Source: Actinomycetota bacterium
GTDB taxonomy: Bacteria > Actinomycetota > Thermoleophilia > Solirubrobacterales > Solirubrobacteraceae
Length of the DNA stretch: 64,000 bases
Direction of reading: 5' to 3'
Assembly: GCA_018268595.1 (NCBI GenBank)
Contig: JAFDWH010000014.1
Location: 62,001-126,000, forward strand
Shown: positions 23,891 through 27,428 of the stretch, in pieces
Position numbering within the stretch: position 1 is the first letter of the stretch
Layout: the number at the start of each line of letters is the position of its first letter
Made by a program: the position numbers and the translations under genes
The notes under the pieces: generated by a model
What the model was told of the DNA's origin: nothing
The model's database searches: none
What the model saw: the letters and a program-made list of their open reading frames with translations, nothing else

Positions 23891-24466
23891 ATGGCTGCGA
23901 CTGCGTCAGTACCACCAGCGCAAGTGGGGTCCGCGCCGCCTCTGGAGCACCAGCGGCGCGGACGTGAGTCTGGCCGGGTGCTCGTCCTCAACGCGACCTT
24001 CGAGCCGATCAACGTCTGCACGGTCCGCCGCGCGGTCGTGCTGCTGCTGAAGGAGAAGGCCGAGGTGCTCGAGCACGCCGAGTACGTGCTGCACTCGGGC
24101 AGCTCGACGGTCCCGCGCCCGGTCGTGATCCGGCTCGTCAGCTACGTGCGCGTGCCCCGCGACACGCACCGCCGCAAGATCACCCGCCGCGCCGTCTTCG
24201 CGCGCGACAACTGGACCTGCCAGTACTGCGGCTCGCGCGCGCAGCTGACGGTCGACCACGTGATCCCGCGCTCGAAGGGCGGCGACTCGAGCTGGGAGAA
24301 CATCGTCGCCTCGTGCGCGCCGTGCAACCGTAGGAAGGGCGACGCGCTCCCGCACCAGGCCGGCATGATCCCCAAGCGCACCCCGCGCACCCCCGGCCCG
24401 CACGTCTTCATCCAGGTCGCCAGCCCGCGGATCCCCACCGCCTGGCGCACCTACCTGGCGGCCTGA
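23891..24466 (+). CDS. HNH endonuclease family protein
   Basis: The 191-aa protein contains LVLNATFEPINVCTVRRAVVLLLKEKAEVLE, the N-terminal signature of a widespread actinobacterial/cyanobacterial HNH family. An HNH domain follows (about 105-150): WTCQYCG, LTVDHVIPRSKGGDSSWENIVASC and CAPCNRRK, i.e. two CxxC zinc pairs around the catalytic DH and N. The family is chromosomal and not tied to restriction; its biological substrate is unknown. A TACACT -10-like element (23872-23877) lies 13 bases before the ATG, and CATAAT (23859-23864) is an alternative. Confidence 0.85.
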   Translation: MAATASVPPAQVGSAPPLEHQRRGRESGRVLVLNATFEPINVCTVRRAVVLLLKEKAEVLEHAEYVLHSGSSTVPRPVVIRLVSYVRVPRDTHRRKITRRAVFARDNWTCQYCGSRAQLTVDHVIPRSKGGDSSWENIVASCAPCNRRKGDALPHQAGMIPKRTPRTPGPHVFIQVASPRIPTAWRTYLAA

Positions 24467-24524: not shown

Positions 24525-24558
24525 AAAACGAAGGGCGCCCTCGACGAGGCGCCCTTCG
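24525..24558 (-). terminator. rho-independent terminator, minus strand
   Basis: A perfect 11-bp stem (24529-24539 with 24548-24558, CGAAGGGCGCC/GGCGCCCTTCG) with an 8-base loop is followed on the minus strand by TTTT (complement of 24525-24528). It would stop transcription leaving gyrA and the structured interval to its right, before the convergent HNH gene. There is no T tract on the plus side. Confidence 0.8.
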
Positions 24559-24780
24559 CTACGACCTGGCTGGACAGAGACCTCGACCAGAGGGACGGCG
24601 ATAGGAGCGCCGGTGCCAGAGGGACCAGTCCCGGCACTGGTCGAGGCGGTGTCTCGGTGTGGACTCCGCTACGCGGGGCCAGCCTTCCGACCTAGCGGCC
24701 GGACACCTCCAGGGTCCCGCAAGAACTGTCAGACAAGATGCGGACCACCTCCTTTCTCTGGTAAGCCCAGAGTAGCGGAC
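24559..24780 (-). ncRNA. candidate structured RNA between gyrA and the HNH gene
   Basis: This interval encodes no protein of normal size but is densely structured. It has a CTCTGG/CCAGAG hairpin (24756-24761 with 24767-24772) and a near-perfect anti-anti-SD sequence (24742-24757). It also has a 7-bp hairpin GACCAGT/ACTGGTC (24623-24629 with 24636-24642) and a mutually exclusive 10-bp pairing (24581-24590 with 24637-24646) extended by GAGAC/GTCTC (24577-24581 with 24651-24655). CCAGAGGGAC is directly repeated (24587-24596 and 24616-24625). It ends at the minus-strand terminator. It could be a separate small RNA or the 3' region of the gyrA mRNA. No Rfam family is recognised by eye. Confidence 0.5.
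24692..24736 (-). CDS. possible 14-codon leader/small ORF behind an extended Shine-Dalgarno
   Basis: On the minus strand AGAAAGGAGGTGGTCC (24757 down to 24742) can pair over its whole length, with one G-U wobble, to the 3' end of 16S rRNA. TTG at 24736, 11 bases beyond AGGAGG, opens a 14-codon frame encoding MSDSSCGTLEVSGR and ending in TAG. The strength of the ribosome site argues that something is translated or that ribosomes are deliberately bound here. The frame is too short for coding statistics to help. No homologue is known to me. Confidence 0.35.
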   Translation of the reverse strand: MSDSSCGTLEVSGR

Positions 24781-24806: not shown

Positions 24807-27428
24807 TCAGCCCGCTCCGTCGCCGCTGTCGCCGTTCCCACCGGCCGGCTCGTCGGACCCGCCGTCGTCGCCGGCGGCGTCGGTCTCGCCCAGCCCCTCC
24901 GGCTGGTGCGAGGCACCATTGCCCTCCGGACCGAGGTCGGCGCCGGTCGCGTCGAGCGGCAGCTCCTCGACGCCGGCGTCGCCCTCGGACTCGACCACCA
25001 ACGCGATCGCGCGCACGCAGTCGTCCTCGCGCACGTTCATCACGCGCACGCCGGTCGCCGCGCGGCCCTGCTGCGAGATGCCGCGCACGCCGGTGCGCTG
25101 CACCATGCCCTCCTGCGAGATGAAGACCAGCTCCTGGTGCTCGCGCACCACGAGCGCGCCGGCGAGGCCGCCCTTCGCCTCGGTCAGCTTGATCGTTCTG
25201 ACGCCCATCGCGCCGCGCGAGGTCTTGCGGTACTGATCGATTCTGGAGCGCTTGCCGTAGCCGGCCTCGGTGACGACGAGCAGGTCCTGGTCGTCGCGCG
25301 CGACGTCCATCGCGATCACCTCGCCGTCGCCGACGTTCATGCCGCGCACGCCGCTCGTGTCGCGCCCCATCGCACGCGCGTCCTCCTCGCTGAAGCGGAC
25401 GGTGAGGCCGGCGCGCGAGACGATGATCACCTCGTCGCCTTCGTCGACCCGGCGCACGGCGACCAGCTCGTCGTCGTCTCTGATCGAGATCGCGATGATC
25501 CCGTCCGCTCTGATCGGCGTGTTGTATCTCTCGAGGGCGGTCTTCTTGACCGTGCCGTTGCGGGTCGCGAACAGCAGGTACGGCGCCTCGGAGAAGTCGC
25601 GCGTCGACAGCACCGACTGCACGCGCTCGCCCTCGCGCAGCGGCAGGATGTTCACCAGCGCGCGGCCCTTCGCGGTGCGCGACGCCTCCGGCAGCTCGTA
25701 GACCTTCGAGCGGTAGACCTTGCCGCGGTTCGTGAAGAACAGCAGGAAGTCGTGCGTCGAGGTCACGAACAGGTGCTCGATGTAGTCGCCGTCCTTCATG
25801 TCCATCCCGGTCACGCCGACGCCGCCACGCCGCTGCTGGCGGTAGGTGGCGAGCGGCAGCGACTTGATGTAGCCGCTATTTGTGATCGTGATGACCATCT
25901 GCTGGTCGGCGATCAGGTCCTCGATGTCGATCTCGCCCTCGGCGTGCGAGATCTGCGTGCGGCGCTCGTCGCCGTAGGCGTCGGAGATCTCCTGCAGCTC
26001 CTCGCGCACGATCGACATCACGCGCTCCTCGTCGCCGAGAATCGCGCGCAGCTCGGCGATCCGCTCGACGATGTCGGCGTGCTCCTGCTTGATCTTGTCG
26101 ACCTCGAGCGCCGTCAGGCGGCCGAGCGTCATCTGCAGGATCGCCTCGGCCTGGCGCTCGGACAGCTCGAAGCGGCTGACCAGCCGCACGCGCGCCTGCT
26201 CGCGGTCGGGCGATCTGCGGATCGTGTCGATCACCTCGTCGAGGTTCGCGAGCGCGATCAGCAGGCCCTCGAGGATGTGCGCGCGATCCTCGGCGATCCG
26301 CAGCTCGTGCTTCGTGCGGCGGACGATCACCTCGCGCTGGTGGTCGACGTAGCGGCCGATGACCTCGCGCAATGAGAGCGTCTTGGGGACGTTGTCCACC
26401 AGCGCGACCATGTTCACGCCGAACGTCGTCTGCATCGGCGTGTGCTTGTAGAGCTTGTTCAGCACGACCTTCGGGAGCGCGTCGCGCTTGAGCTCGATCA
26501 CGAGCCGCATGCCGCGCCGGTCCGACTCGTCGCGCAGGTCGCTGATCTCGGGGATCTTCTTCTCGTGGACGAGGTCGGCGATCTTCTGGATCAGCCCGCC
26601 GTCGCCGCCCTTCTTCACCTGGTAGGGCAGCTCGGTGACGATGATCGCCTCCTTGCCCTGCGACAGCGGCTCGATGTGCGCCTTCGCCTGCAGGCGCACC
26701 TTGCCGCGGCCGGTCTCGTAGGCGTCGCGAATGCCCTTCGAGCCGAGGATGATCCCGCCGGTCGGGAAGTCGGGGCCGGGCATGTGTCGCATCAGGCCCT
26801 CGACCGAGATGTCCGGGTCGTCGATGTAGGCGATCGTCGCCGCGACGGCCTCTCTCAGCGCGTGCGGCGGGATGTTCGTCGCCATGCCGACGGCGATGCC
26901 GGTCGCGCCGTTGACGAGCAGGTTCGGGAAGCGCGCCGGGAGCACGAGCGGCTCCTGGTTCTGCCCGTCGTAGTTGGGCCCGAAGTCGACGGTGTCGGCG
27001 TCGATGTCGCGCAGCATCTCGGTCGCGATGCGCGCGAGGCGGGCCTCCGTGTAGCGCATCGCAGCGGCGGGGTCGTCGTCGACCGAGCCGAAGTTGCCCT
27101 GGCCGTCGACGAGCGGGTGGCGCATCGAGAAGTCCTGCGCCATGCGCACGAGCGTGTCGTAGATCGCCGAGTCGCCGTGGGGGTGGTACTTGCCCATCAC
27201 GTCGCCGACGATGCGCGAGGACTTCGCGCGCGGGCGCGTCGGCTGCAGGCCGGCCTCGTTCATCGCGAACAGCACGCGCCGGTGGACGGGCTTGAGGCCG
27301 TCGCGCACGTCGGGCAGCGCGCGGCCGACGATGACGGACATCGCGTAGTCGAGATACGCCGAGCGCATCTCCTCCTCGAGCGCGCGCAGCTCGAAGTTGC
27401 CGCCGCTCAATTGATCGGTCGCGCTCAT
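24807..27428 (-). CDS. gyrA: DNA gyrase subunit A
   Basis: The 873-aa protein carries the breakage-reunion domain with the catalytic tyrosine Y126 in [10 protein letters not shown]. The quinolone-resistance region is [18 protein letters not shown], with Ser at 87 and Asp at 91 (quinolone-sensitive type). The C-terminal DNA-wrapping domain has repeated blades, including the GyrA box QQRRGGVGV. The tail is very acidic and Gly/Asp-rich. With GyrB it introduces negative supercoils. It starts 3 bases after gyrB, so the two are cotranscribed leftward from the origin. Confidence 0.97.

Follow-up and report, generated by a model that had tools for sequence, protein, structure and literature searches.

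A divergent Ms_IGR-5 small RNA in Solirubrobacteraceae carries a conserved mini-ORF between two 16S-complementary sites and is a candidate ribosome-occupancy switch

Introduction

What is encoded between gyrA and a convergent HNH gene in a Solirubrobacteraceae genome (Actinomycetota, Thermoleophilia; assembly GCA_018268595.1), where a near-perfect complement of the 16S ribosomal RNA (rRNA) 3′ end, a short open reading frame (ORF) and several stems share a few hundred nucleotides (nt) of the minus strand? We addressed this question in a window of 64,000 nt (contig JAFDWH010000014.1, positions 62,001 to 126,000 of the forward strand), which is the whole stretch analysed and to whose first letter all coordinates refer. 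The element, spanning 24774–24526 on the minus strand, is almost certainly a homologue of Ms_IGR-5 (RF02471) and an independent gene, and its mini-ORF is very probably translated. Our preferred reading of the whole chain of evidence, to which we give somewhat less than an even chance, is that this stand-alone small RNA (sRNA) gene of about 240 nt would act as a ribosome-occupancy switch.

Ms_IGR-5 is annotated in mycobacteria, being known from M. smegmatis, and, via Rfam, in Streptomyces; the papers that we found give no function for it. Our comparison extends the family to Thermoleophilia and Acidimicrobiia and corrects its structure. The ORF, the two 16S-complementary sites and the fold have been selected together, which provides an anonymous sRNA with a ribosome-coupled mechanism open to test in M. 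smegmatis, S. coelicolor and other laboratory strains.

Results

The element is a divergent homologue of Ms_IGR-5

At gathering thresholds, an Rfam scan returned only transfer RNA, leaving the element itself unmatched. An earlier reading of the sequence (the preliminary description) could match it to no known RNA family, which proves narrowly wrong: at a relaxed threshold, RF02471 aligns end to end, over positions 1–184 of 184 (26.3 bits, E 2.4e-4 in a 321-nt search), and in a whole-genome search the element is its sole match (E 6.3e-4). The score stays below the gathering cut-off of 45 bits, and a default Rfam scan therefore misses the element. Since 45 bits is a curation threshold, the element is filed as a divergent RF02471 homologue and not as a certified Rfam member.

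A covariance model built from 26 Thermoleophilia sequences only (R1) matches Rfam-positive mycobacterial and other loci (among L034–L052) over the full length of the model, with E-values of 7e-8 (L034), 9e-9 (L035) and 5e-12 (L042). RF02471 in turn matches 51 of 198 phylum genomes at E ≤ 0.01, with 19 above the cut-off, and its matches in the family and order of the window (genomes G000, G014, G019, G024 and G041) are the same element. Because the matches run both ways, from RF02471 to Thermoleophilia and from R1 to Rfam-positive loci, homology is secure despite the low Rfam score.

The element is a gene of its own

In 62 of 122 elements across the phylum, the motif TANNNT ends 13–14 nt ahead of AAAGGAGG, compared with five and two elements that hold any TANNNT in two neighbouring 15-nt control windows. 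The terminator with TTTT that the preliminary description had pointed out (24560–24526) is present and conserved. At two loci (L018 and L029) the orientation is flipped, such that the element points toward gyrA and not away from it, and in other families the flanks lack gyrA and carry unrelated genes instead, a variety judged from translations and not from a family search. A −10 motif at fixed distance, a terminator and the flipped orientation to gyrA together argue for an independent gene and against a gyrA 3′ end. Ms_IGR-5 homologues are transcribed as sRNAs in Streptomyces lividans (PMC8079986), S. avermitilis (PMC8780764) and M. smegmatis (PMC10454040).

Two 16S-complementary sites flank the body of a mini-ORF

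The element and its neighbours are laid out as follows.

24807–27428, minus: gyrA
24774–24769, minus: putative −10 element TACTCT; the expected transcription start would lie a few nt before the 16S-complementary box
24757–24742, minus: extended Shine–Dalgarno (SD) box AGAAAGGAGGUGGUCC, the complement of the last 16 nt of 16S rRNA
24736–24692, minus: mini-ORF TTG...TAG, 14 codons, peptide MSDSSCGTLEVSGR and stop; the place of the stop and the open frame are kept in relatives
24713–24718, minus: pseudoknot strand 1, GGGACC, within the ORF (partner 24626–24621)
24704–24710, minus: internal SD-like GGAGGUG, within the ORF, nine nt ahead of the stop codon
24699–24707, minus: 5′ strand of helix P1, GGUGUCCGG, overlapping the internal SD and the last ORF codons
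24666–24676, minus: hairpin P3, CCGC-GUA-GCGG, with 87.9% of cells paired in the 26 relatives
24648–24657, minus: 3′ strand of helix P1, CCGAGACACC, a mimic of CACC in the 16S anti-SD
24637–24646, minus: 5′ strand of helix P5, CCUCGACCAG, also in the minimum-free-energy (MFE) fold
24615–24635, minus: hairpin P4, GCCGG...CUGGC, whose loop carries pseudoknot strand 2
24621–24626, minus: pseudoknot strand 2, GGUCCC, in the P4 loop
24581–24590, minus: 3′ strand of helix P5, CUGGUCGAGG, pairing with 24646–24637
24526–24560, minus: intrinsic terminator, a GC hairpin followed by UUUU; the hairpin is conserved in most relatives
23891–24466, plus: HNH gene, convergent with the element

The box AGAAAGGAGGTGGTCC (24757–24742, minus) pairs at all 16 positions, one of them as G-U, with the 16S 3′ end GGAUCACCUCCUUUCU, as the preliminary description had seen; the host's own 16S 3′ end was located as the reverse complement AGAAAGGAGGTGATCCAGCC. 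The site is unique on both strands of the window, where the next best reaches 14 of 16, and its duplex with 16S rRNA has an energy of −29.9 kcal/mol, versus −2.7 to −11.2 kcal/mol upstream of six other genes in the window. It is near-invariant in the 26 relatives and in 123 phylum-wide elements. The second site, GAGGUG, is invariant, and its spacing to the stop codon is 9 nt in 115 of those 123 elements and 8 nt in the remaining eight. The predicted duplex of the internal GGAGGUG with the anti-SD has an energy of −18.3 kcal/mol.

The frame of the mini-ORF is selected while its peptide is not conserved

The TTG frame of 14 codons previously recognized here is present at 24736–24692, and the ORF is conserved across the phylum. 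Among 123 distinct elements (set 1), 115 have a stop exactly nine nt past GAGGUG (90 TAG, 21 TGA and 4 TAA) and in the other eight the stop, TAG or TAA, comes one nt earlier and the start codon and frame shift with it; these and the following ORF figures are counts, not probabilities, because related sequences are not independent. Within the 115, the first ATG, GTG or TTG past the box shares the frame of the stop in 86 of 91 cases; that frame is uninterrupted in 112 elements, versus 19 and 37 for the two other frames. Set 2, a separate collection of 118 distinct elements from named genomes whose taxa overlap with those of set 1, has the stop in 118 of 118 and in-frame starts in 101 of 105, the frame being open in 117 of 118 versus 7 and 33. 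The ORF is thus open and in frame in more than 230 elements, with a length of 10–15 codons across the phylum. Non-standard starts are likely in some of them (AUC in 13, AUU in 3 and CUG in 12 elements).

The peptides differ wholly between families, as illustrated by MSDSSCGTLEVSGR, MINHRTCEVAAA and, in family f5, MQQDCGGGSS. No amino-acid conservation beyond the RNA constraints was found, given that the peptides differ and that the f5 frame is shifted by one nt. An ORF that is kept open and in frame while its peptide changes suggests that translation itself is under selection. In M. abscessus and M. smegmatis, ribosome footprints on homologues of Ms_IGR-5 have been reported (PMC4974804). Staphylococcus aureus offers documented cases of extended SD sites combined with non-canonical starts, and the small ORFs concerned are regulatory (PMC13009471); the likeness lies in the extended SD pairing and the unusual starts, whereas the worked example in that study is a leader ORF ahead of a gene and the element here is its own gene.

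Covariation supports a long-range helix and a pseudoknot

In the 26 Thermoleophilia sequences, P1, P3, P4, the pseudoknot and a short stop-codon hairpin together have 94.8% of cells paired and nine both-sided pair changes, compared with 90.6% and 3.3 in shuffles and at most 51% paired in slid versions. P1 (94.9% paired, with compensatory changes) was recovered independently by RNAalifold and by the single-sequence MFE fold. Its variants across the phylum include GGUGGCUGC/GCAGUCACC, GGUGAUGAG/CUCAUCACC and GGUGGCAGU/GCUGCCACC, while GGUG/CACC itself hardly varies. P4 has 97.7% of cells paired and both-sided changes in three of its five pairs; the pseudoknot has 98.1% paired, again with both-sided changes. 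Phylum-wide, the pseudoknot boxes GGAC, UGAC, CGAC and AGAC are matched by GUCC, GUCA, GUCG and GUCU, respectively, and among 112 parsed elements the pair made by the first base of the box is G-C in 77, C-G in 11, U-A in 10 and A-U in one. The paired fraction of the pseudoknot is 0.812 on this scale, versus at most 0.754 in 1000 shuffles, the loop being taken as the best-pairing one in a short window, which favours pairing somewhat. P5, which corresponds to the 3′ helix of the Ms_IGR-5 model, has covarying partners in L002–L007, as read from alignments. The preliminary description had named covariation and conservation among relatives as part of the test of its observation; both are found, and the observation survives.

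The phylum-wide core, as it emerges from the aligned sequences, is a 15–16-nt anti-16S box, an ORF of 10–15 codons, GAGGUG and a long-range helix GGUG...CACC, with the pseudoknot in most families. A short form (L093, L189, L190, L191, L194, L195, L197 and L198, mostly f5) is without the GGAC box and the pseudoknot; its ORF has 10 codons in a frame shifted by one nt relative to GAGGUG, and the terminator mostly follows right after the CACC strand. Because f5 dispenses with the pseudoknot and retains the SD, the ORF, P1 and the terminator, these four constitute the minimal core.

Ms_IGR-5 aligns with the element over its full length, with the anti-16S box, mini-ORF, GGAC box, GAGGUG and stop at matching places and with the CACC strand and P4/P5 at the 3′ end. 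In contrast, the Thermoleophilia elements possess an additional 3′ segment with a separate terminator, and the ORF has 14 codons here versus 12 in Ms_IGR-5. The Rfam structure consists of a helix on the SD tail, a hairpin 2 and a 3′ helix, with neither P1 nor the pseudoknot; the CACC strand is left unpaired. Its 3′ helix fits P4/P5, and P1 and the pseudoknot use part of the bases of the Rfam structure.

Other pairings did not hold up. The preliminary description had proposed that a 7-base-pair (bp) and a 10-bp stem sharing bases exclude each other. Both are present in the sequence, but their competition is not a family trait: in relatives, the 10-bp stem (24646–24637/24590–24581), which is P5, is maintained through many compensatory changes, whereas the 7-bp stem (24642–24636/24629–24623) pairs in L002 and L004 and is broken in L003, L007 and L008. 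Since neither all congeners nor the wider family retain the 7-bp stem, we rejected the switch between the two. A direct repeat of CCAGAGGGAC (plus strand, 24587–24596 and 24616–24625), also remarked on previously, exists but is not kept in relatives. Helix P0, in which RNAalifold pairs the SD tail GGUCC with GGACC, was not taken as conserved, as the tail stays GGUCC in families with UGAC or CGAC boxes and does not change with them. A second, local hairpin at the stop (CCGGCC/GGUCGG) uses some of the bases of P1, and at L029 the hairpin is lost and P1 retained.

In many Thermoleophilia relatives, a conserved TCCAGCC ahead of the terminator (24568–24573) could pair with GGCTGG past the ORF (24679–24684), both on the minus strand. 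This candidate GGCUGGA/UCCAGCC helix to the 3′ segment was seen by eye and was not adopted.

Distribution across the phylum

A DNA search gave a clear match in most of 61 genomes of the same order or closer, the full tally of 61 of 61 being of matches at E ≤ 1, chance ones included. Five of six congeners are 79–82% identical to the element region, and its core (24762–24691) is the best conserved part. A mixed covariance model (R2) matches 118 of 296 phylum genomes, with a single match in nearly every one of them. Among the named genomes that carry the element are Mycobacterium, Mycolicibacterium, Nocardioides, Nonomuraea, Actinomadura, Cellulomonas, Micromonospora, Conexibacter, Patulibacter and Acidimicrobiia.

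Two records titled as Acidobacteria or Acidobacteriota metagenome-assembled genomes (L210 and L250) contain the element as well; these may be mis-assigned or contaminated bins or may reflect transfer. At L088, a partial second match (model positions 57–149) at 1655–1755 (G043:C1:347645-347745) directly follows a complete element, an apparent tandem duplication of the 3′ half.

Discussion

A candidate ribosome-occupancy switch

The pseudoknot strand, the 5′ strand of P1 and the internal GAGGUG all lie within the ORF, and a translating ribosome must therefore open both pairings. In the mechanism that we propose, a 30S subunit or 70S ribosome would load on the extended SD and translate 10–15 codons. 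When the last sense codon occupied the P site, GAGGUG would stand roughly where an initiation SD stands; at the stop codon, the 16S tail could then grip the internal GAGGUG, and the spacing suggests that the ribosome would tend to be retained. While the ribosome was held, P1 and the pseudoknot would be open and the 3′ domain exposed; without a ribosome, both would close. The output would depend on how many ribosomes with an intact 16S tail are available, and the open or closed RNA might hold subunits, bind a protein or a messenger RNA (mRNA), or alter its own half-life. That the RNA refolds in a ribosome-dependent manner appears to us evenly balanced. More tentatively, the element may be an ancient RNA of the Actinomycetota that gauges or retains ribosomes competent for initiation, with two 16S-complementary sites around a peptide-indifferent mini-ORF whose occupancy toggles a pseudoknotted fold. 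If true, this would be a trans-acting, translation-driven RNA switch of a kind not described in the literature that we searched. The proposals of the preliminary description that the element is a free small RNA, that ribosome binding and translation are central to it and that its folds would compete with ribosome occupancy are supported by these results.

The programmed frameshift site of prfB, the gene of release factor 2, carries an SD-like sequence within a frame shortly before a stop codon, and this acts on the elongating or terminating ribosome. The element resembles it in having an internal SD-like site shortly ahead of the stop. However, the SD of prfB lies about 3 nt before the slippery codon, whereas the spacing here is longer, at 9 nt to the stop; the element has no downstream protein frame and uses three different stop codons.

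Several observations weigh against a ribosome-occupancy switch. The hold on the ribosome by the internal SD is a reading of spacing and not a measurement. Elements that have none of ATG, GTG, TTG or CTG need to start at AUC (13), AUU (3) or ACG (1). Family f5 is without the pseudoknot, which is therefore not essential in every member, and the single-sequence fold is only modestly stable relative to shuffles (z −1.91). Finally, over half of the phylum genomes sampled have no match, and the RNA is thus either dispensable, if these are true losses, or often missed, if the model lacks sensitivity.

Alternative explanations

The strongest rival is a ribosome or 30S decoy, in which the strong SD, with the second site at the stop, ties up small subunits and thereby lowers free initiation capacity or shields the 16S 3′ end, while the fold merely spaces the two sites and stabilizes the RNA. 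An SD duplex of −29.9 kcal/mol, two 16S-complementary sites and the footprints on homologues (PMC4974804) would all suit such a role, as would the want of a conserved peptide or neighbour. A pure decoy, however, needs neither a stop-matched open frame nor a pseudoknot overlapping that frame, and both are conserved; it would also have to be very abundant. We regard it as rather unlikely.

We are more sceptical of a dual-function sRNA or base-pairing regulator whose 3′ domain (P4/P5 and the GUCC loop) binds mRNA targets by pairing, with the mini-ORF translated only to tune stability or access. A small stand-alone RNA with its own promoter motif and terminator fits this description, and the pseudoknot loop would be freed once a ribosome occupied the ORF. 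But the loop varies by family, following the ORF strand (GUCC, GUCA or GUCG), which an internal partner explains better than a fixed external target, and the explanation is in our view distinctly unlikely.

Were the element a small mRNA with the peptide as its product, the phylum-wide conservation of the ORF start, the stop and a very strong SD would be readily explained. This is nevertheless improbable, given peptides that are wholly different, an f5 frame offset by one nt with respect to GAGGUG, and conserved residues that coincide with the RNA pairing and SD constraints. A leader-peptide attenuator or gyrA 3′ untranslated region element controlling the transcription or decay of a neighbour, suggested by the position between gyrA and HNH and by the short ORF, alternative stems and terminator, is ruled out for practical purposes by loci L018 and L029, where the element is flipped relative to gyrA and HNH, and by the unrelated neighbours of other families. 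The control of transcription past the element that the preliminary description had envisaged is not supported, as there is no conserved same-strand gene downstream, the HNH gene being convergent here and the neighbours differing elsewhere.

Related observations

Ms1/6S-like and 6C sRNAs are likewise stand-alone Actinobacterial small RNAs, and the element has no Rfam match to them. Ms1 binds the RNA polymerase core (PMC4191392).

Elsewhere in the same genome (L033; G000:C16:35860, plus strand), another near-perfect 16S-complementary box, AGAAAGGAGGTGATT, lies upstream of a short hydrophobic frame with an ATT start, (I)EVTISLIVLLLVIHRVTR and stop. It is followed by a strong hairpin and by a copy in which those coding words partly recur. 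This frame has the look of a gene for a small membrane peptide, which is perhaps toxin-like.
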